NCBI RefSeq assembly: GCF_000384815.1
Contig: NZ_ARQF01000018.1
Coordinates: 1 to 64,000 of the forward strand
Origin: Halodesulfovibrio aestuarii DSM 17919 = ATCC 29578
Lineage (GTDB): Bacteria > Desulfobacterota > Desulfovibrionia > Desulfovibrionales > Desulfovibrionaceae
DNA: 64,000 nt
Reading direction: 5' to 3'
The stretch's first letter is position 1; every line of letters starts with the position of its first letter. Of the stretch, positions 10,754 through 19,569 are shown piece by piece. The position numbers were made by a program, and so were the translations under genes. The notes below the pieces were generated by a model. It was not told where the DNA came from. It saw only the letters and a list, made by a program, of their open reading frames with translations, and did not search any database.

Positions 10754-11458
10754 CTAGCCAGCTATTCTTTCGAAGAGGTTGATTGCCTCTTCGGGAGGGT
10801 TTGAAAAGTCTTCAATATGCGGAATACAGCCGCATACAGAATAGTTTGAAAATGTGGAGATAGCCTCCATGTTTTCCTGCAGCATCACCTGTGGTGTACG
10901 GTGTTCCTTGTTATTCACAAACACTATCCCTGCCGGTTGAACGCCCCGGTGATGCAACGCCTCAATGGAAAGAAGCGTGTGGTTGATTGTACCAAGTCCG
11001 GCTCGTGCAACGAGTATGGGCTTGATCCCGAACCGCTCGACGGCCAGCTGCACCATGTCCGCCAACATGTGTGTACGGCTGAAAGGCACTAACAGTCCTC
11101 CTGCAGCTTCTACCACCAAGGTATTATTTTTACGCAAATATGCCAGTTTGTGTAAAAGGTCTTCCACTTCTACGCTGCTTTGTTCATCACGGGCAGCGTA
11201 GAATGGAGCCTTGGGATTGCGAAAGCAGGCTCCGGTTGCATCAGCAGCAGTTTGATGCACTTCGGGACAATATTTAAGAACGAAGCTGGCGTCCGCGCCG
11301 GCATCGTTCGGGCTAAGGCAGCCTGTTTGCACTGGTTTCCAATAGTAAGGCGCGTGCCCCGCCCTTATTAGAAACCGCATAAGCATCAGGGAAGCAACTG
11401 TCTTACCCACATCGGTATCTGTACCGACAACGAAAAATGACGGATTAGGTTCTGTCAT
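10754..11458 (-). CDS. bioD: Dethiobiotin synthetase
   Basis: 234 residues. ATP-dependent carboxylation of 7,8-diaminopelargonate to dethiobiotin. P-loop GTDTDVGKT is at about residues 12-20; KPVQTG and the downstream VEAAGGLLVP are family signatures. It is the last gene of the biotin operon and overlaps the bioF stop by 14 bases, which implies translational coupling. Confidence 0.93.
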   Translation of the reverse strand: MTEPNPSFFVVGTDTDVGKTVASLMLMRFLIRAGHAPYYWKPVQTGCLSPNDAGADASFVLKYCPEVHQTAADATGACFRNPKAPFYAARDEQSSVEVEDLLHKLAYLRKNNTLVVEAAGGLLVPFSRTHMLADMVQLAVERFGIKPILVARAGLGTINHTLLSIEALHHRGVQPAGIVFVNNKEHRTPQVMLQENMEAISTFSNYSVCGCIPHIEDFSNPPEEAINLFERIAG

Positions 11459-12587
11459 ACCACCCCCTAATACTGTTGACGAATGTGTGTACGTCCGCAG
11501 TACTGTGCAAGGCTGTCATACTTACTCGTATGACAGCTTTGTTCGTTGGTACGGTCGGATAACGTGATGCAAAAGCAAGCACACCATCTTTCCGCATTTT
11601 TTCCGCAAGTTCTGCGGCTTTCGTTTCATTACCAATCTCAATAGAAACAATATGCGCATCACCCTGAATGGTGAATCCGGCCTCCTGTATATCAGCACGC
11701 AAGAGTGCGCTGATATGTGCCAGATGTTCGCGTTCCGATTCCATTGTCGGCAGTTTTTTGAGTAACGCAGCAGCCGCTGCTGCGTGTGCTTCCGGCATCG
11801 CTGTTGAATAGATTACAGGCGATGAGAAGTTATGGAAAAATTCTTTAAATCCTCTCGGCATGAGTACGAAAGCACCGAACATCCCAAGTGCCTTGCCGAA
11901 GGTTCCCACGGCTATGTCTGTGCAGCCGTGACTGATACCTGTGCCGTTTGCACCCAGCGCCCCGAATGAGTGTGCTTCGTCCACTATCCCAAAAAAGTTA
12001 TGCTTCTTGCGTAATGCCTTGAACATTTCTGTATTCAATACATCACCATCCATGCTGAAAAGCGACTCTGTGAGTACCACAGGGTTTTCTGCATCGGCAG
12101 CGGTTAATTTTCTATCCAGCTGGGCAAGGTCACTATGGGCAAATCCTTTTAGTGTGCTGCCCGTCTGGACGAGGCCCTGCGCCATGCTGGCATGAATTCG
12201 TTTATCGTAGAACAAGGTTTCAGCAGGGCTGCATAGTCCCCATATTACCGCAAGGTTTGCCTGATAGCCGCTAGGGAGGAATAAAGCCTCATCGTATCCG
12301 AAGTATTCTGCAAATTGTTGCTCAACATCTTCGGTGTATTGGCTATGGCCTGTAACAAGCCGTGACGAAGTGCCGGACGGTGAATGAGAAGCAAAGCATT
12401 CACTGACAGTTTTTTGCCAATCGGAATCTTGTGACAGACCAAGGTAGTCGTTGGATGCAAAATTGATGAGCTTCTTTCCATCAACAAGGACATGACTGCC
12501 GATTTGTTTTTCCACAGTAATGGGATTCCGGTATAGCCCTGAATTTTTTTGTACGGCAATGGAGCGTTTTAGGCGTTCTGTAACCAT
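11445..12587 (-). CDS. bioF: 8-amino-7-oxononanoate synthase
   Basis: 380 residues. Condenses pimeloyl-thioester with alanine using PLP. Signatures: FASNDYLGLS (about 43-52), GYQAN, DEAHSFG (about 200), and the PLP lysine in GTFGKALG (about 230). The start codon overlaps the 3' end of the upstream hotdog gene by 19 bases. Placement directly after the FAS-like genes indicates its acyl donor is made by their products, probably as an ACP thioester; this is inference. Confidence 0.94.
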   Translation of the reverse strand: MVTERLKRSIAVQKNSGLYRNPITVEKQIGSHVLVDGKKLINFASNDYLGLSQDSDWQKTVSECFASHSPSGTSSRLVTGHSQYTEDVEQQFAEYFGYDEALFLPSGYQANLAVIWGLCSPAETLFYDKRIHASMAQGLVQTGSTLKGFAHSDLAQLDRKLTAADAENPVVLTESLFSMDGDVLNTEMFKALRKKHNFFGIVDEAHSFGALGANGTGISHGCTDIAVGTFGKALGMFGAFVLMPRGFKEFFHNFSSPVIYSTAMPEAHAAAAAALLKKLPTMESEREHLAHISALLRADIQEAGFTIQGDAHIVSIEIGNETKAAELAEKMRKDGVLAFASRYPTVPTNKAVIRVSMTALHSTADVHTFVNSIRGWYDRT

Positions 12588-13006
12588 TGAAATAACTCTC
12601 TGTAATGGGTTGTGAGGGAGTCTTTCGAGAACTGTGCACCAAACTCGGTACTTCCGAAGAGAAAGGAGCCTTCTAGGGCTATCTCTTCGCAGGTAAAGGA
12701 AATATCATAGGCTGCTGTGGAATCCGTCAGAGCTGTCTGTACAACTGTAGTTGTGGCACAGCCTGAGAAGGCAGCTGCACGTAGTAGAGGTGATTGTTGA
12801 ATAGAAAGCAGGAACGCATGTCGAGAGAAATTCATGCATTTTCTAAAATGCAGGCCGCCAGTCTGCGCCATTGCTTCCAGAGCAAGATAGGCAGGAGCGT
12901 TTATAAACTTTTTTTCAGCCGTAAGCGTCTTGTCATCATACTGTACGATTCTGTCCAGCATGATGAAGTTGTCTACGCCAAAGCGGATGGTTTTATCGTA
13001 TTGCAT
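12569..13006 (-). CDS. Hotdog-fold dehydratase-like protein keeping only the Glu helix
   Basis: 145 residues. The N-terminal strand-loop pattern IMLDRIVQYDDKTLTAEKKF and the helix LEAMAQTGG (Glu44) match FabZ/FabA dehydratases. The catalytic loop that should precede the helix (His-Phe-Pro-x-x-P-x-x-PG) is missing: the sequence goes straight from FINAPAY to LALEAMAQ. It therefore has the acidic catalytic residue but no His. It abuts the ketosynthase stop with no gap and overlaps bioF. It complements the small hotdog protein at 15369-15677, which has the His but no Glu. Function as half of a heterodimer is inference. Confidence 0.7.
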   Translation of the reverse strand: MQYDKTIRFGVDNFIMLDRIVQYDDKTLTAEKKFINAPAYLALEAMAQTGGLHFRKCMNFSRHAFLLSIQQSPLLRAAAFSGCATTTVVQTALTDSTAAYDISFTCEEIALEGSFLFGSTEFGAQFSKDSLTTHYRELFQWLQNA

Positions 13007-14239
13007 TTATGACCAGAGGCGCACAACGAGCGCGCTGTTTTGACCACCGAACCCGAAGTTTTCCAGAAGGATGTTGGTTGGCATATATGTACCGGAAAAC
13101 TCAGTACGTTCGGTAACAAAGTTGATTTTGTCGGAACAAGGTGTGGTGAGGTTACGTACAGGCGGTACAACACCTTTGCTGAGTGATGCGAGAAGAATAC
13201 TTAGTTCAACGGCTCCGGATGCAGCGGTGCAGTGTCCGATCCAAGATTTAACAGCTGTGACGTAAGGCCGCTTGTTGTTGGTGTCTGCATAGAACACGCG
13301 TTCAATCATGTTTGCTTCCATGCGGTCATTAAGTGGTGTGGAGGTACCATGGGCAGAGATGAGGTCAATATCATCAGGTGTCAAATTTGCTTCTGTGAGA
13401 GCCGAACGGACAGCTTTTTCTGCATGGACTGCGTCAGGGTGCGGTGCAGTCATGCTATGGGCATCCATTGTTGCGCCATATCCGCAAATTTCAGCTAGAA
13501 TATGTGCGCCGCGTTTCTGCGCGTGCTCCAGTGATTCCAGAACAAACATAGCACCGCCTTCACCAGCGATGAATCCGCAGCGGTCTGCATCAAACGGTCG
13601 GCATGCCTCGTTCGGTTTGCCACCTTTATTCCATATGGCCTGTGCTTTTTTATACGCAAGTAATCCGCCGTGGGAGATTCGAGAATCACCTCCACCTGCA
13701 AATGCAACAGTACGGTATCCATCTTTGATTTTACGAAAGGCCTCTCCAATCGCTTGAGTGGAAGCGGAGCACGCGGTGCCTATAGTGGAGTTGTCACCTT
13801 GAATATGTAAAAACTGGCTGATGGCGCTTGCGGCAGTGTTGGGTAGGTAGCGAAGCATCCATAGGGCTGCAAGCTCGACACTATCCAGGTTGCCGTTTTT
13901 AATATTCGGGAAATCTGAACTGATATCAAAATTAGGGCCGGCACCAGTAAAGAGTCCGGCTTCTGCAAATTCCTCAATAGGTAGGCTGCAATTTTCAGCG
14001 GCACGTATGGCAGCAGCGAGTGCAAATTGGGCTCCCCGGGCGAGATATTTTTTATTCTTCCACCGTCCGGTAGATGCTGTGAGAGAAAAGTCTGGAACAG
14101 GGCAGACAAAGCACCCTTCAAAGTCGTGAAAAGGAATAAAGTTTGGTGTATTATGACGAACAGTATTCGTGATTTCTTCAGGAGTGCTGCCAAGCGGCGT
14201 TACATACCCTGCACCTGTTATGACGACTCGATTACGCAT
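13007..14239 (-). CDS. Beta-ketoacyl-ACP synthase of the biotin cluster (FabF-like)
   Basis: 410 residues with thiolase fold. Catalytic triad present: Cys157 in TACSAST, His297 in SAHGTST, His336 in WIGHCTAASG, the KAS I/II Cys-His-His type. It would condense malonyl-ACP onto an acyl chain. It lies 9 bases after the ACP gene and is followed immediately by a hotdog gene, all in the biotin operon, so it is probably dedicated to the pimeloyl chain rather than bulk lipids. Comparative work on Desulfovibrio biotin loci has noted FAS-like genes in this place; substrate details are inference. Confidence 0.88.
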   Translation of the reverse strand: MRNRVVITGAGYVTPLGSTPEEITNTVRHNTPNFIPFHDFEGCFVCPVPDFSLTASTGRWKNKKYLARGAQFALAAAIRAAENCSLPIEEFAEAGLFTGAGPNFDISSDFPNIKNGNLDSVELAALWMLRYLPNTAASAISQFLHIQGDNSTIGTACSASTQAIGEAFRKIKDGYRTVAFAGGGDSRISHGGLLAYKKAQAIWNKGGKPNEACRPFDADRCGFIAGEGGAMFVLESLEHAQKRGAHILAEICGYGATMDAHSMTAPHPDAVHAEKAVRSALTEANLTPDDIDLISAHGTSTPLNDRMEANMIERVFYADTNNKRPYVTAVKSWIGHCTAASGAVELSILLASLSKGVVPPVRNLTTPCSDKINFVTERTEFSGTYMPTNILLENFGFGGQNSALVVRLWS

Positions 14240-14248
14240 CTCAGCTTC

Positions 14249-14617
14249 TTACGCACGCTTAGCATATTCAACGTACGCAACAATATCACGTACCTGAAGA
14301 ACAGGGCCTTTGTTAATAGTGCTCAACATCTCTTTTATACGGTCAGAAGAAAGGTGCGGATATACGCTCACAAGGTGAGTTACAGGTTCCAGTCCCTTAT
14401 CGTTTGCTTCTGCAATGTGTGTGCGGAATGATTTTAAGAACACCGTCTCATCGTGGACAGAGACACCACATTCTTTTGTAAGCCCCACGCCATACTCCAT
14501 CAGGTCGATAGACTCCGTTGGGAGGTCACGCATAACGTAAGTTTCTGGGGTGACTTCTTCCGGCTCTACTTCGAGAACCTCTGTAATAACAGCCTGTACT
14601 TGATTAAAAATAGACAT
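14249..14617 (-). CDS. Atypical acyl carrier protein with an insertion
   Basis: 122 residues, versus about 78 for a standard ACP. The N-terminal helix and the attachment segment LPTESIDLMEYG (Ser about residue 36) align with the DSLD motif, here ESID. After helix 2 there is an extra stretch of roughly 40 residues (about 65-105) before the final helix LQVRDIVAYVEYA, which ends like a normal ACP. It sits between the reductase and ketosynthase genes with 9-base gaps. Likely carries the pimeloyl precursor; the insertion may restrict it to cognate partners (inference). Confidence 0.78.
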   Translation of the reverse strand: MSIFNQVQAVITEVLEVEPEEVTPETYVMRDLPTESIDLMEYGVGLTKECGVSVHDETVFLKSFRTHIAEANDKGLEPVTHLVSVYPHLSSDRIKEMLSTINKGPVLQVRDIVAYVEYAKRA

Positions 14618-14626
14618 GTGATTTCC

Positions 14627-15376
14627 TTATTTGCACGCGGTTAACCCGCCATCCATGGTAATAGCTGTGCCGTTTATCATCGTTGCGTTATCACTGAGTA
14701 AAAATGCCACGGTGCTGGCAACTTCATCCGGTGTAACCGCGCGCTTCGCCGGGCAGCGTTTAACCGCTTGCGGGTTACTTTCAATAAAAGTGTTTCCTCT
14801 GCCGCTCTGCACATATCCCAGCCGTAGCGAGCATGTTGTAACGCCGCGTCCACCAAGTTCAACTCCAAGATTTTGATACAGAGCTTCGCCAGCCAGCTTT
14901 GATGCAGCATAAAAGCCTTGTCCCGCATTCGGGAGTGCCGCAGCCGTTGAAGAAATAAAAACACAACGTCCAAAGCGGGTTGCCAGCATCATTCTTGAAA
15001 TATAGCGTAAGCAAATGGCTCTGCCGGAAATGTTTGTTTCCATATAGTTGGCCACATCAACAGGTTCAGCTCCTGCGACAAATTCCTCGAAATTACTCTG
15101 CATGCAGTCAACAAGGTATTCTGGAGAATCTATGCTTTCTAGTGTGGCATCTGGTTGCATAGTAGCGTTGTGAGCAACCGCTGCTAAATTGAGTTTTAGT
15201 ATCGTTGCAGTGGGAAAGGCCGATGAAATGCGTGCAATACCTTTTTCCGAACATGCAGAAAGGGTAAGCCGAAGCCCTGCATCGGATAATACTTTTGCAA
15301 CCGCCATCCCCAAGTCAGAAGATGCTCCAAGTACACATGCGTGCTCACCGGAAAAGCGCATGGGAATATTATGCAT
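14627..15376 (-). CDS. Short-chain dehydrogenase, FabG-like ketoreductase of the biotin cluster
   Basis: SDR fold of about 249 residues: cofactor motif GASSDLGMAVA near the N-terminus, catalytic Ser in FISSTAAALP, YAASK for Tyr and Lys, and the C-terminal NGTAITMDGG typical of FabG. It would reduce 3-oxoacyl-ACP with NAD(P)H. I start it at ATG 15376 because GGGAGAC precedes it; this makes it overlap the upstream hotdog gene by 8 bases. A GTG/ATG further upstream is less likely. Confidence 0.86.
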   Translation of the reverse strand: MHNIPMRFSGEHACVLGASSDLGMAVAKVLSDAGLRLTLSACSEKGIARISSAFPTATILKLNLAAVAHNATMQPDATLESIDSPEYLVDCMQSNFEEFVAGAEPVDVANYMETNISGRAICLRYISRMMLATRFGRCVFISSTAAALPNAGQGFYAASKLAGEALYQNLGVELGGRGVTTCSLRLGYVQSGRGNTFIESNPQAVKRCPAKRAVTPDEVASTVAFLLSDNATMINGTAITMDGGLTACK

Positions 15377-15677
15377 CCCCGTCTCCCTCAGTATGAACAA
15401 GTATACGACCCGTTACAGTTTTAGCATTGTTTTTAAACAAGGTGCACGCATAGCCGAACGGCTTTGCTTCAATAGAATACGAATACACAGCAGGCGTAAT
15501 AAACGACTTGAAGCGAAATTTGCTTACGCTCAAAGTTGCCTCGGGTATCAGTTCGCGCAGCACGCTTACAAAGCTATGGATGATAACCGTTCCCGGAATT
15601 ACAGGGCTGTCAGGGAAATGATCTGCCAGCGCCGGTTCATCAGCGGGAAATGTGAATGTGCCTGTAATGTTGTTCAT
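15369..15677 (-). CDS. Short hotdog dehydratase-like protein keeping only the His loop
   Basis: 102 residues. The active-site loop ADHFPDSPVIPGT (His20) is a very good match to FabZ/FabA. The following helix, which in FabZ carries Glu (EAxAQ) and in FabA Asp, reads VIIHSFVSVL with no acidic residue. It is thus the mirror image of the protein at 12569-13006. FabZ/FabA active sites are built from His of one subunit and the acid of the other, so pairing of the two proteins is plausible. It is the first gene of the FAS-like block. Confidence 0.75.
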   Translation of the reverse strand: MNNITGTFTFPADEPALADHFPDSPVIPGTVIIHSFVSVLRELIPEATLSVSKFRFKSFITPAVYSYSIEAKPFGYACTLFKNNAKTVTGRILVHTEGDGDA

Positions 15678-15692
15678 AGTATTTTTGCCTAT

Positions 15693-15765
15693 GGCATGCC
15701 TTCGGCGAGTCTCCGACGGGCAAGGGCTCTGCCCTGCACCCGCAAGGGGGACTCCCCCTTGACCG
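15693..15765 (+). repeat. Interspersed palindromic repeat, copy 1
   Basis: GCCTTCGGCGAG followed by TCTCCGACGGG, then hairpins GGGCA/TGCCC and CAAGGGGG/CCCCCTTG. The CYTCCGGCGG-type core plus G/C hairpins resembles intergenic repeats common in Desulfovibrio genomes (from memory). Copy 2 lies inverted about 165 bases away. Confidence 0.5.
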
Positions 15766-15927
15766 TGATTATGGATAAGGGGATTGTTCGCGCATTGCCT
15801 TAATCTCAGAATGAAGTGTGATTTCGGCAGAGGTTACGCAAGTCGTTTCAGGTTGTAGCAGTACGTCGCTTTACGAACTGAGGCATAAGCCGCAAATGTA
15901 ACTCTGTGACGGACTGAACTCGCTACT

Positions 15928-16015
15928 AAAAGTTTTTGGAGAGTCCAGATAGCGACAGTGCAACAGGTTCTCTGGCCGTCGGAAGCATTAAACATACCGC
16001 CGGAGGCCTACAAAA
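15928..16015 (-). repeat. Interspersed palindromic repeat, copy 2 (inverted)
   Basis: Read on the minus strand: GCCTCCGGCGG (16007-15997), GCTTCCGACGGCCAGAG, then TCTGGACTCTCCAAAAACTTTT. It shares the GCCTYCGGCG and TYCGACGG blocks with copy 1 in the opposite orientation. The pair fills the only long gap (344 bases) in the biotin operon and may act as a terminator, mRNA-stability element or insertion. Confidence 0.5.
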
Positions 16016-16021
16016 ATATCC

Positions 16022-17377
16022 CTATTCAGTCACAGTCTTGATTGCTTCAGTCGTAGCGTTGCACAGCAGGTCAATTTCGCTGAGTGTTATGCTGAGCGGT
16101 GGCATGAGCACGATGACGTCTCCGAGGTTTCGTATGATGACTCCGTGCTTTCGTGCTTCCATGCAGACTTTGTGGCCAATTTTTTCTGCGGTTGCGAATG
16201 GAGCTTTGGTGGCTTTGTCTTGCACCAGTTCGATGCCGGTCATGACCCCGCGGTTGCGGATTTCTCCGATGTGTTTAAGCTCCAGCATTGCTGTGAGCCT
16301 GTTTTGCAAATGGGCAATTTTAGGCTGAAGCTTTTCCATAACGTTGTTGTTTTCAAAATAATCAAGGTTAGCTATGGCTGCTGCACAGGCTAGCGGGTTG
16401 CCTGTGTAGGTGTGGCCATGAAAGAACGTTTTGAATTCTTCGTGGTTGCCGAGAAACCCGTTGTAAATCTCTTCTGACGTGACAGTTGCTGCGAGTGGCA
16501 GGTAACCTGCGCTGATGCCTTTGGCGAGGCAGATAATGTCCGGCGTAATATTTTCCTGCTCACAGGCGAACATAGTTCCGGTTTTACCGAAGCCTACTGC
16601 GACCTCGTCTGCAATGAGAATAATGTTGTGGCGGGTACACAGGTTGCGCACATGCGTGAGGTAGCCTTCCGGATGCATAAGCTGCCCTGCTGCACCTTGC
16701 ACCAGTGGTTCAATAACGAACGCAGCCGCGGTGCTTCCGTGTGCTTCGAGTACGCCTTCTACGTGCTGGAAACATTCGTGGTCGCAATTTGATTTGTCTT
16801 TACCGAATGGGCAGCGGTAGCAGTAGGGAGTGATGACTTTTTCACCCTGAAAGAGCATGTGCTTGTAGGTTGCGTGGAATAAATCCATACCTCCAACGGA
16901 AACGGAACCGATGGTGTCGCCGTGATATGCGTTTTGCATTGAGATAAATTTGATGCGGTCAGAGTCACCTTTCTCTGCCTGCTGCTGGAACTGGAAAGCG
17001 ATTTTAAGCGCAACTTCGACTGCGGTGGAGCCACTGTCGGAGTAGAAGACACGGGTGAGTCCTGCCGGAAGAATATCAACAAGGCGTTTTGCGAGTTCTG
17101 TTGCCGGAACGCTGGCAAGGCCGAGCATAGTAGTGTGAGCAATTTTTGCTAACTGTTCCTGTACTGCTTTGTCTATTTCCGGCACACAGTGACCGTGTAC
17201 GTTCGTCCATAAGGATGAGACACCGTCTAGATATTGGTTGCCTTCAGTGTCCATGAGCCAGTTGCCTTTACCGCTTTCAATGATGAGCTGGTCTTGCTGA
17301 GTCCATTCTGCCATCTGGGTGAATGGATGCCATACGTTGGTGCGGTCGATATGCTGTAATTCTTGTGTTGTGCTCAT
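16022..17377 (-). CDS. bioA: Adenosylmethionine-8-amino-7-oxononanoate aminotransferase
   Basis: 451 residues, class III PLP aminotransferase. Transfers an amino group to KAPA to make 7,8-diaminopelargonate. Motifs: WHPFTQM at the N-terminus (BioA signature), GKGNWLMDTEGNQYLDG, YHGDTIGS, LIADEVAVGFGKTG and the PLP lysine in LAKGISAGYLP. It is 9 bases downstream of bioB. A 344-base gap with repeats separates it from the FAS-like block. Confidence 0.95.
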   Translation of the reverse strand: MSTTQELQHIDRTNVWHPFTQMAEWTQQDQLIIESGKGNWLMDTEGNQYLDGVSSLWTNVHGHCVPEIDKAVQEQLAKIAHTTMLGLASVPATELAKRLVDILPAGLTRVFYSDSGSTAVEVALKIAFQFQQQAEKGDSDRIKFISMQNAYHGDTIGSVSVGGMDLFHATYKHMLFQGEKVITPYCYRCPFGKDKSNCDHECFQHVEGVLEAHGSTAAAFVIEPLVQGAAGQLMHPEGYLTHVRNLCTRHNIILIADEVAVGFGKTGTMFACEQENITPDIICLAKGISAGYLPLAATVTSEEIYNGFLGNHEEFKTFFHGHTYTGNPLACAAAIANLDYFENNNVMEKLQPKIAHLQNRLTAMLELKHIGEIRNRGVMTGIELVQDKATKAPFATAEKIGHKVCMEARKHGVIIRNLGDVIVLMPPLSITLSEIDLLCNATTEAIKTVTE

Positions 17378-17386
17378 GTGTGCTCC

Positions 17387-18367
17387 TTATAACACGCCCA
17401 TACAGGAAAGCATGCTGATGTCGTCTGTTATGTTGCGTCCGCTTGTGGTCAGGTAGTTGCCGATCATAAGACCGTTGGCACCTGCCATAGGGATAAGAGA
17501 TTGAAATTCGCCAAGGGTGTTTTCGCGACCGCCTGCAATCAGAATGTCCTGCGTTGGAAGAATAAATCTATAGACTGCAATGGCGCGCAGCGCTTCGGAA
17601 GGAGCAAGGAGTGGCTGGTTTTCAAGGCGTGTACCTTTGACCGGAGTCAGAAAATTCATAGGAATAGATGGAACTTCGAGATCCCGCAGGGTGCAGGCCA
17701 GTTCAACCCGTTGGTTGCGGTTTTCACCGAGACCTAATATGCCGCCTGAACAGACTCGGAAGCCGGCTTGAAGTGCGTTCTGCACGGATATGATATCGTC
17801 GTCATATTCGTGCGTACTGCAAATGGCGGAGAAGTGGGAGCGGGCTGTTTCGAGGTTGTGATGATAACTTGAGAAGCCGGCCTGTCGTAACCTTTGTGCC
17901 ATGTCGGGTGAAAGTTGGCCGAGGGAACCACAGACTTTAATGCTTGTCTGTGTGGTGATGGCAAGTGCTGCTTCGCAAACAGTGTCGAGTTCTTTATCAG
18001 AGAGAGCCATGCCGCTGGTCACAATGCCGTATCTCTGTGCGCCGCCTGCTTCCAGCTCCTGTGCTCGGGTTAGCAAAGCTTTGGGATCGATTAATGGATA
18101 AATTGGCGCACCCGTGTCATGGTATTTTGACTGTGCACAGAAGGAACAGTTTTCACTGCATTTACCTGATTTGGCGTTTATAATACCACAGGTAAATGTT
18201 GTATTTGTTGTAATCGTGGAGCGAATACGTTGTGCACCGGCAAGAAGATCAAGTGTTGCGCTCTCCGGCAGGTTTATCAGTATTTCAGCATCATCGCGGC
18301 TGATACCTTTTCCTGACTGGACAACCTCTTCGCACAACGCGTACACAGTTGAAGTTATGGTGGTCAT
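17387..18367 (-). CDS. bioB: Biotin synthase
   Basis: 326 residues, radical SAM enzyme that inserts sulfur into dethiobiotin. The [4Fe-4S] motif CSENCSFCAQSKYH (Cys-x3-Cys-x2-Cys) is near residue 70, and the family segment GGRENTLGEFQ is near the C-terminus. It is first in the minus-strand biotin operon, divergent from birA. The intervening 215 bases hold a BirA operator, so repression by biotinyl-AMP-loaded BirA is likely. Confidence 0.95.
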   Translation of the reverse strand: MTTITSTVYALCEEVVQSGKGISRDDAEILINLPESATLDLLAGAQRIRSTITTNTTFTCGIINAKSGKCSENCSFCAQSKYHDTGAPIYPLIDPKALLTRAQELEAGGAQRYGIVTSGMALSDKELDTVCEAALAITTQTSIKVCGSLGQLSPDMAQRLRQAGFSSYHHNLETARSHFSAICSTHEYDDDIISVQNALQAGFRVCSGGILGLGENRNQRVELACTLRDLEVPSIPMNFLTPVKGTRLENQPLLAPSEALRAIAVYRFILPTQDILIAGGRENTLGEFQSLIPMAGANGLMIGNYLTTSGRNITDDISMLSCMGVL

Positions 18368-18536: not shown

Positions 18537-18570
18537 TTGTCAACTTTGATTCATCGTATAAGGTTTACAA
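18537..18570. promoter_or_regulatory. BirA operator between bioB and birA
   Basis: Left half TTGTCAACT (18537-18545), 16-base spacer, right half GGTTTACAA (18562-18570). The known bacterial BirA site is TTGTAAACC-N14-16-GGTTTACAA: the right half is perfect and the left half has two mismatches. It ends 12 bases before birA and is about 170 bases from bioB, so it could repress both directions. Confidence 0.75.
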
Positions 18571-18582
18571 TCAGAGGTATAA

Positions 18583-19569
18583 ATGGCTTCAAAGGGAACT
18601 GCAGTTCGTGAAAAGATCTTGGAATTACTGCAAAAAAATACAGATGGATATACGTCCGGAGAGGATTTAAGCCAGCTGTTTTCCATTTCGCGTGCGGCTG
18701 TGTCTAAGCATGTCAGTGTGCTGCGTGGACAGGGACACGAGATTGAAGCTGTTACCCGTAGGGGATACCGTTTGCTGCGCAAAGCAGAGTTACTTACGGA
18801 AGATGTTGTGCGGCAGGGATTGAAGACACAGCTTTTTGGCCAGTGCGGGGTGCATTATCTGCCAAGTGTCGGGTCGACCAATCTGGAAGCCATGCAACTT
18901 GCATTTTCAGGTGCACCGGAAGGAACCGTTGTTGTGGCAGATGAGCAGACAGGTGGCCGTGGCAGACAGGGACGCATTTGGCATTCACCAGCCGGCTGTG
19001 GTCTATATGTCTCTGTCGTTTTGCGACCGGATATTGCCCCGAATGAAGCACCTATTATTACGTTATTAACCAATGTTGCGGCGGCAGAAGCTGTGCACGA
19101 GATGACGGGTATTCTTCCTGTTTGTAAATGGCCTAATGATGTTCTCATAGATGGTTGCAAGGTTGCCGGAAATCTTACTGAGATATTTCTTTCCGGTGAC
19201 GTTGTGAGTCATATTATCTCAGGTGCTGGGATTAACGTGCGCCCGTTGCCGAAAAGGCTGGTGGCTGATTTGCGTACAGCACCGTGCTCCCTTGAAGAAA
19301 CCGCAGGGAAAAGTATTTCCCGCGTTGAGCTGTTACAGGCATATCTGGTTCGGTATGAGTATTGGTACCTGCTTGTAAAAGAGCAAGGGTTTGCTCTTTT
19401 ACTTACCCGTTGGAAAGAACTCACTGATGTCGTTGGTAAAGAACTGACTGTAGAGGTTCGCGGGGAGACTTTTCAAGGCACGGTGACAGACGTATCCACG
19501 GACGGTATGTTGCTTCTGCAAAGCAGCGATGGAGTTGAACATCGTCTGTTCTCTGGTGATATCTTGTAA
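18583..19569 (+). CDS. birA: Biotin-protein ligase and biotin operon repressor BirA
   Basis: 328 residues. The N-terminal winged helix (about 1-65; DLSQLFSISRAAVSKHVSVLR is the HTH) is followed by the ligase domain with GGRGRQGRIWHSP (biotinyl-AMP loop, about 125-137) and KWPNDVLIDGCKVAG (about 182-196), then the small C-terminal SH3-like domain. It attaches biotin to carboxylases and represses bio genes. The group II form with a DNA-binding domain agrees with the operator just upstream, which would also give autoregulation. Confidence 0.95.
   Translation: MASKGTAVREKILELLQKNTDGYTSGEDLSQLFSISRAAVSKHVSVLRGQGHEIEAVTRRGYRLLRKAELLTEDVVRQGLKTQLFGQCGVHYLPSVGSTNLEAMQLAFSGAPEGTVVVADEQTGGRGRQGRIWHSPAGCGLYVSVVLRPDIAPNEAPIITLLTNVAAAEAVHEMTGILPVCKWPNDVLIDGCKVAGNLTEIFLSGDVVSHIISGAGINVRPLPKRLVADLRTAPCSLEETAGKSISRVELLQAYLVRYEYWYLLVKEQGFALLLTRWKELTDVVGKELTVEVRGETFQGTVTDVSTDGMLLLQSSDGVEHRLFSGDIL

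Follow-up and report, generated by a model that had tools for sequence, protein, structure and literature searches.

A probable split-site hotdog dehydratase encoded in the biotin operon of Halodesulfovibrio aestuarii

Introduction

The hotdog dehydratases FabZ and FabA are homodimers, and in FabZ both halves of the catalytic motif lie in one chain. In the double-hotdog dehydratase domains of polyketide synthases (PKS) and fatty acid synthases (FAS), one hotdog supplies the His and the other the acid of a single site. Here we analyse a stretch of 64,000 nucleotides of Halodesulfovibrio aestuarii DSM 17919 (contig NZ_ARQF01000018.1, positions 1 to 64,000; hereafter the window), whose biotin operon encodes two small hotdog proteins, named hd102 and hd145 after their lengths in residues, which share the fold and the catalytic motif halves of FabZ and FabA but carry one half each.

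Two hotdog dehydratases made of separate proteins have been described. PDB entry 6QSR is titled 'Dehydratase Heterocomplex ApeI:P', and the accessible literature citing it describes the complex as heterodimeric, with one active site. Mycobacterial HadAB also forms one active site from two proteins, with a hydratase-2 motif and a His-Asp dyad that, according to the accessible text of PMC4491049, lies wholly on HadB, whereas in the window the His is on hd102 and the Glu on hd145. A preliminary description of this DNA had named HadAB as a heterodimeric precedent; we rejected that comparison as regards a dyad split between subunits, and ApeI:P is the closer precedent because both catalytic residues of HadAB sit on HadB.

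A pimeloyl/biotin cluster of Desulfovibrio was predicted by Rodionov 2004 (PMC545781) and tested by Trotter 2023 (PMC10102598). As given in the accessible text of the latter, ten genes of D. vulgaris had a specific importance in the absence of biotin, nine of which lie in DVU2558-DVU2565, and the FabZ-like members of the cluster are DVU2560 and DORF42491; the authors considered the whole cluster to be needed for biotin-free growth and left open the biochemistry up to pimeloyl-acyl carrier protein (ACP). Neither paper, in its accessible portions, proposes an active site divided between two proteins, and nowhere does the main text of PMC10102598 use the word 'heterodimer'; among the titles, abstract openings and text passages searched, which mostly did not extend to subscription papers, no dehydratase of biotin synthesis was described as split or heterodimeric. 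The window has the same gene set as DVU2558-DVU2565 together with a BirA operator, thus holding every part of a Desulfovibrio-type cluster: bioB/A, a hotdog gene, a short-chain dehydrogenase/reductase (SDR), ACP, a 3-ketoacyl-ACP synthase (KAS), a second hotdog gene, bioF, bioD and the BirA site.

Results

The two halves of the FabZ signature were found on different proteins of the window. hd102 carries ADHFPDSPVIPG with His20 (HFPDSPVIPG), and 14 residues further on, where FabZ has its Glu, it has His34 and hence no acid in the following helix; hd145 carries LEAMAQTGG with Glu44 and lacks the His loop. On these points the preliminary description was accurate, as it was in placing the two open reading frames (ORFs), to which the ORF list adds the minus strand. 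The AlphaFold monomer models of both proteins are confident hotdogs, and the genome gave a single FabA/FabZ-family match (E ≤ 0.001), an intact FabZ whose one chain holds both residues.

Comparable loci were collected through the KAS gene and through the hotdog genes. Searching 297 genomes of the class for the KAS gave matches in 56, from 53 of which 54 stretches were collected, and a contig scan with the KAS alignment kept the best 80 of 566 loci; among these best 80, L091-L106, whose record titles include Desulfobacterales, Syntrophales, Desulfoluna, Desulfovibrio, Elusimicrobia and Cloacimonadota, carry biotin-cluster genes, and the others are different KAS loci. Further loci came from scanning 395 genomes of the phylum with the hd102 and hd145 profiles. 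Split contigs of one genome were joined (L066+L076, L185+L186 and L187+L188), and exact duplicates as well as one 35-bit FabZ-like match on the opposite strand of L094 were left out; the resulting 69 distinct loci contained hd145 in 67 cases, hd102 in 57 and both in 55. Ten sequences read later (eight hd102 and two hd145) stand outside the counts of 57 and 67.

Across this sample the division of the motif was maintained. The His loop with Pro-Gly is present in all 57 hd102 and the pattern E..AQ......R (Glu44, Ala47, Gln48 and Arg55, the last lying 11 residues or about three helical turns past Glu44) in all 67 hd145, none of which has His-x-Pro in the 30 residues preceding the Glu; the ten later-read sequences likewise retain their motif halves. 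Position 34 of hd102 is variable, with Glu in 14 sequences, His in 13, Gly in 9, Gln in 8, Ala in 6, Asp in 4, Arg in 2 and Asn in 1. On the KAS tree (69 rows; a quick tree with several long branches), no change was counted at His20, Pro22, Pro28, Gly29 and Pro62 of hd102 or at Glu44, Ala47, Gln48 and Arg55 of hd145, the median number of changes per column being 18 for hd102 (95 columns) and 21 for hd145 (131 columns); position 34 changed at least 15 times, or 8 times if only exchanges between acid and non-acid are counted. The universal presence of each pattern, the lack of His-x-Pro in hd145 and the absence of tree changes confirm that the FabZ signature is split across hd102 and hd145 beyond chance: each protein fully conserves one half, the other being about as variable as the average column in hd102 and deleted in hd145.

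Two further features were recorded. In the hd102 of L103 (4046-4546), L045, L046, L049, L054 and L068, a long and variable insertion separates the hotdog helix from the strand that follows. Planctomycete-type loci (L114, L121, L122, L125, L141, L156, L158 and L169) have two FabZ-like genes near SDR and ACP genes and beside KAS, and, unlike the biotin pair, each of those chains holds both an HFP loop and an acid.

The occurrence of the two genes was followed beyond the operon. A single hotdog gene was present in 14 of the 69 loci, and genome searches for the absent partner recovered hd145 in 2 of 2 cases and hd102 in 5 of 7 and 4 of 5; ten of the eleven recovered sequences were read and are real hd102 or hd145 with the expected motif, a match in G686 with an internal TAA being left out. 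In the 395-genome sweep, the hd145 profile matched in nine genomes (E ≤ 1e-5) and the hd102 profile in 352, most of these with scores typical of FabZ. Seven genomes had an hd102 match of at least 65.9 bits, and all seven also carry hd145; one of them is G678, whose hd145 scored only 12.5 bits, yet it occupies its cluster place and has an ELAAQ motif.

The pair was then compared with ApeI and ApeP (PF22818 and PF22817), which it resembles in combining a small His-loop hotdog with a larger ExxAQ hotdog in one FAS-like cluster; ApeI:ApeP belongs to an aryl polyene cluster with a ketosynthase:chain length factor (KS:CLF) pair, whereas the window pair belongs to a biotin operon with a single KAS. 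In the structural comparison the top match of hd102 was ApeI (VIA-align), and hd145 matched ApeP, ranked below FabZ. Profile alignment with hhalign joined hd145 to ApeP at 8e-8 over 103 columns and to the genome's FabZ at 4e-6 over 66 columns, and hd102 to FabZ over 54 columns and to ApeI over 93 columns; the hd145 and hd102 profiles gave no useful alignment with each other (E 0.13). PF22818 matched 9 of 31 hd102 members at E ≤ 1, and PF22817 none of 33 hd145 members. Weak matches to PF21089 (PKS_DH_N) were seen in 10 of the 31 hd102, again at E ≤ 1; the PKS/FAS dehydratases are fused megasynthase domains, whereas hd102 and hd145 are separate genes.

The motifs of the solved complex, for which we take the original paper to be Grammbitter 2019 (aryl polyene), follow the same division. 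The ApeI His loop reads GHFAVQPLLPG in Escherichia coli and GHFPVQPLLPG in 6qsr_A, with an Asp at His+14 as in the hd102 members that retain an acid there; E. coli ApeP, which lacks an HFP loop, has FALELMAQ, and the crystallised ApeP (6qsr_B) has FAIEMMAQ. The ApeP-like protein of L184 (5347-5844; hhalign 2e-9 over 112 columns), encoded next to KS genes in a different genome of the phylum, aligned to the hd145 profile better than E. coli ApeP did. ApeP-like matches to PF22817 outside the biotin operon (L190-L194) occurred in 5 of 21 genomes searched, three of them above the family cut-off, and all five genomes, the window's own included, belong to the window's genus.

The layout of the operon is given in Table 1. 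ORFs and Pfam scan together place the minus-strand genes in the order bioB-bioA-hd102-SDR-ACP-KAS-hd145-bioF-bioD, preceded by a BirA-type operator. The SDR start codon (ATG at 15376) lies within the end of hd102, giving an overlap of 8 bases, although the SDR ORF as listed begins at TTG 15400; hd145 directly follows KAS, and bioF overlaps its end by 19 bases. ACP homologues of relatives likewise sit between SDR and KAS. The KAS scored 303.4 bits against TIGR03150, under the equivalog cut-off of 493.75; its Asp185-Ser186-Arg187 and FGFGGQN are invariant in 20 aligned sequences, the window's included, and Arg187 could contact the omega-carboxylate. The operator pattern was matched once in the window versus never in 100 shuffles, with a spacer of 16, and no match with a spacer of 14-15 was present in the window; the consensus spacer is 14/15, and both Desulfovibrio sites listed in the accessible part of PMC545781 have 15. 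Of 55 stretches collected, 14 contain homologues of the birA-like gene. Between bioA and hd102 lies a gap of 344 bases (15678-16021) that holds pieces of dispersed repeats, with 12 more partial matches elsewhere in the genome, 10 of them within gap positions 254-326.

Table 1. Coordinates and supporting evidence for the biotin operon and key codons in the window
Feature	Position	Strand	Evidence
hd102, 102-aa hotdog protein, ApeI/FabZ-like, catalytic His loop	15369..15677	-	ORF
hd145, 145-aa hotdog protein, ApeP-like, catalytic Glu helix, no His loop	12569..13006	-	ORF
His20 codon of hd102, proposed catalytic His	15618..15620	-	H in 57/57, 0 changes on KAS tree
His34 codon of hd102, at place of FabZ catalytic Glu, variable	15576..15578	-	
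Glu44 codon of hd145, proposed catalytic Glu	12875..12877	-	E in 67/67, 0 changes
Arg55 codon of hd145, invariant	12842..12844	-	R in 67/67; aligns with Gly of E. coli ApeP
SDR, 3-oxoacyl-ACP reductase-like	14627..15376	-	ORF; PF13561 96.9 bits
Dedicated acyl carrier protein, 122 aa	14249..14617	-	PP-binding 20.5 bits, just below cut-off of 20.8
KAS, FabF-like condensing enzyme of biotin cluster	13007..14239	-	PF00109 and PF02801 above cut-off
bioF	11445..12587	-	ORF and PF00155; name from position in published cluster
bioD	10754..11458	-	ORF and PF13500; name from position in published cluster
bioA	16022..17377	-	ORF and PF00202; name from position in published cluster
bioB	17387..18367	-	ORF; BATS and radical SAM domains
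BirA-type operator TTGTAAACC-N16-AGTTGACAA, between bioB and divergent birA	18537..18570	-	Pattern match
birA-like gene, divergent (candidate)	18583..19569	+	ORF; name by position

Discussion

The observed gene order, split conservation, monomer folds and fold kinship to both ApeI:P chains make it very probable that hd102 and hd145 pair as an ApeI:P-like heterodimeric 3-hydroxyacyl-ACP dehydratase with one site, acting within the pimeloyl pathway. The composite dehydratase put forward in the preliminary description is thus carried by split conservation, synteny and the match to both chains of a solved complex, while its HadAB precedent and its strict reciprocity have been given up.

By analogy with the catalytic roles in FabZ, His20 of hd102, on the HFP..P..PG loop, would remove the C2 proton. 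Glu44, close to where the hotdog helix of hd145 begins, would help the C3 hydroxyl to leave. Since hd145 lacks the His loop, the second, symmetry-related site would be inactive; the acid that some hd102 have at position 34 would be located in this site without His and would therefore be free to stay or go, which would account for its presence in some hd102 and its repeated change. Together with this dehydratase, KAS, SDR and the dedicated ACP would carry out two elongation rounds starting at malonyl-ACP, with 3-hydroxyglutaryl-ACP and 3-hydroxypimeloyl-ACP as the presumed dehydratase substrates and pimeloyl-ACP as the end product delivered to BioF without methyl esters.

Several observations weigh against this interpretation. 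Reciprocal loss, as envisaged in the preliminary description, holds for hd145, which never has the His loop, but not throughout hd102: Glu or Asp occupies position 34 in 18 of 57 sequences, and Glu in 3 of the 8 read later, so that one chain does hold both residues there, contrary to what had been expected. These two-residue hd102 do not refute the composite site because hd145 keeps Glu44 wherever it is found, those loci included, and never has the His loop. Position 34 is of merely average variability, 38% of hd102 columns changing less. The raw mirror-tree correlation between hd102 and hd145 (0.57) is under those with KAS (0.73 and 0.81), and the partial correlation given KAS is -0.04 (55 pairs), nothing beyond shared history. 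The anticipated co-presence of both genes held in 55 of 69 loci and, with nine absent hd102 and two hd145 recovered genome-wide, in most of the remainder, but genome searches gave no clear hd102 in three drafts: G264 has FabZ only, G279 has, besides FabZ, a fragment of 24 bits at the edge of a contig, and G682 has FabZ-like matches and a 73-residue fragment of 39.5 bits. The kinship to ApeI:P also has its qualifications. The VIA-align lead of ApeI over FabZ for hd102 is about 1 Z unit, ApeI ranks 42nd by Foldseek E-value, after FabZ chains, and hd102 is closer in sequence to FabZ (4e-11) than to ApeI (2.8e-5); for hd145, FabZ chains score above ApeP (14.4 versus 12.6), and 6qsr_B has HLPG 8 residues before its Glu, unlike E. 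coli ApeP and hd145. The window proteins have no ApeI or ApeP Pfam match (E ≤ 10), and they miss the FabZ cut-off of TIGR01750 (155.15 bits) with 21.0 bits for hd102 and 12.0 for hd145. Finally, the D. vulgaris phenotypes were obtained with transposon insertions, which may have polar effects within an operon.

That the two proteins instead form independent homodimers, hd102 acting on its own as a dehydratase in which another acid or a water works together with His20, and hd145 having another role in the pathway, seems improbable to us. Many hotdog enzymes are homodimers, and the acid retained in 18 hd102 and the absence of a mirror-tree pairing signal fit such an arrangement; against it, 39 of 57 hd102 have no acid at position 34, the missing E..AQ half is found in hd145 in 67 of 67 cases, and the pair matches both chains of a solved heterocomplex. 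The same 18 sequences, and the HadAB precedent with its dyad on HadB as described in the accessible text of PMC4491049, would suit an arrangement in which hd102 holds all catalytic residues and its partner merely binds the chain. We regard this as very unlikely, given that the window hd102 has His at position 34 and that the zero-change columns of hd145 are the E..AQ half of FabZ plus Arg55; the Pfam scan gave no MaoC-type match on either protein. That hd145 stands outside the dehydratase, as a thioesterase or an editing enzyme of the hotdog type, is scarcely credible, as ExxAQ is the FabZ/ApeP motif, the hhalign score ties hd145 to ApeP, and such an activity would destroy the pimeloyl-ACP used by BioF in the pathway outlined in the accessible text of PMC10102598.

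More tentatively, and with considerable doubt, the hd102-hd145 heterodimer might represent a separate split-site lineage that runs in parallel with ApeI:P without belonging to its Pfam families, serves vitamin synthesis and is adapted to chain ends with a free carboxylate. The invariant Arg55, which aligns with a Gly of E. coli ApeP, and the near-invariant His53 of hd145 would hold the omega-carboxylate, so that neither BioC methylation nor BioH would be needed in these anaerobes. Carboxylate binding by Arg55 is offered as an idea because Kuenenia FabZ and the planctomycete-type protein of L116 likewise have an Arg at the equivalent helix position.

If hd102 and hd145 do form one dehydratase, the two FabZ-like genes of the cluster would be halves of a single enzyme filling the dehydratase step, which would account for the need for both genes despite an intact FabZ. 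Biochemists should then co-express hd102 and hd145, and the ApeI:P solution would extend beyond pigment clusters.
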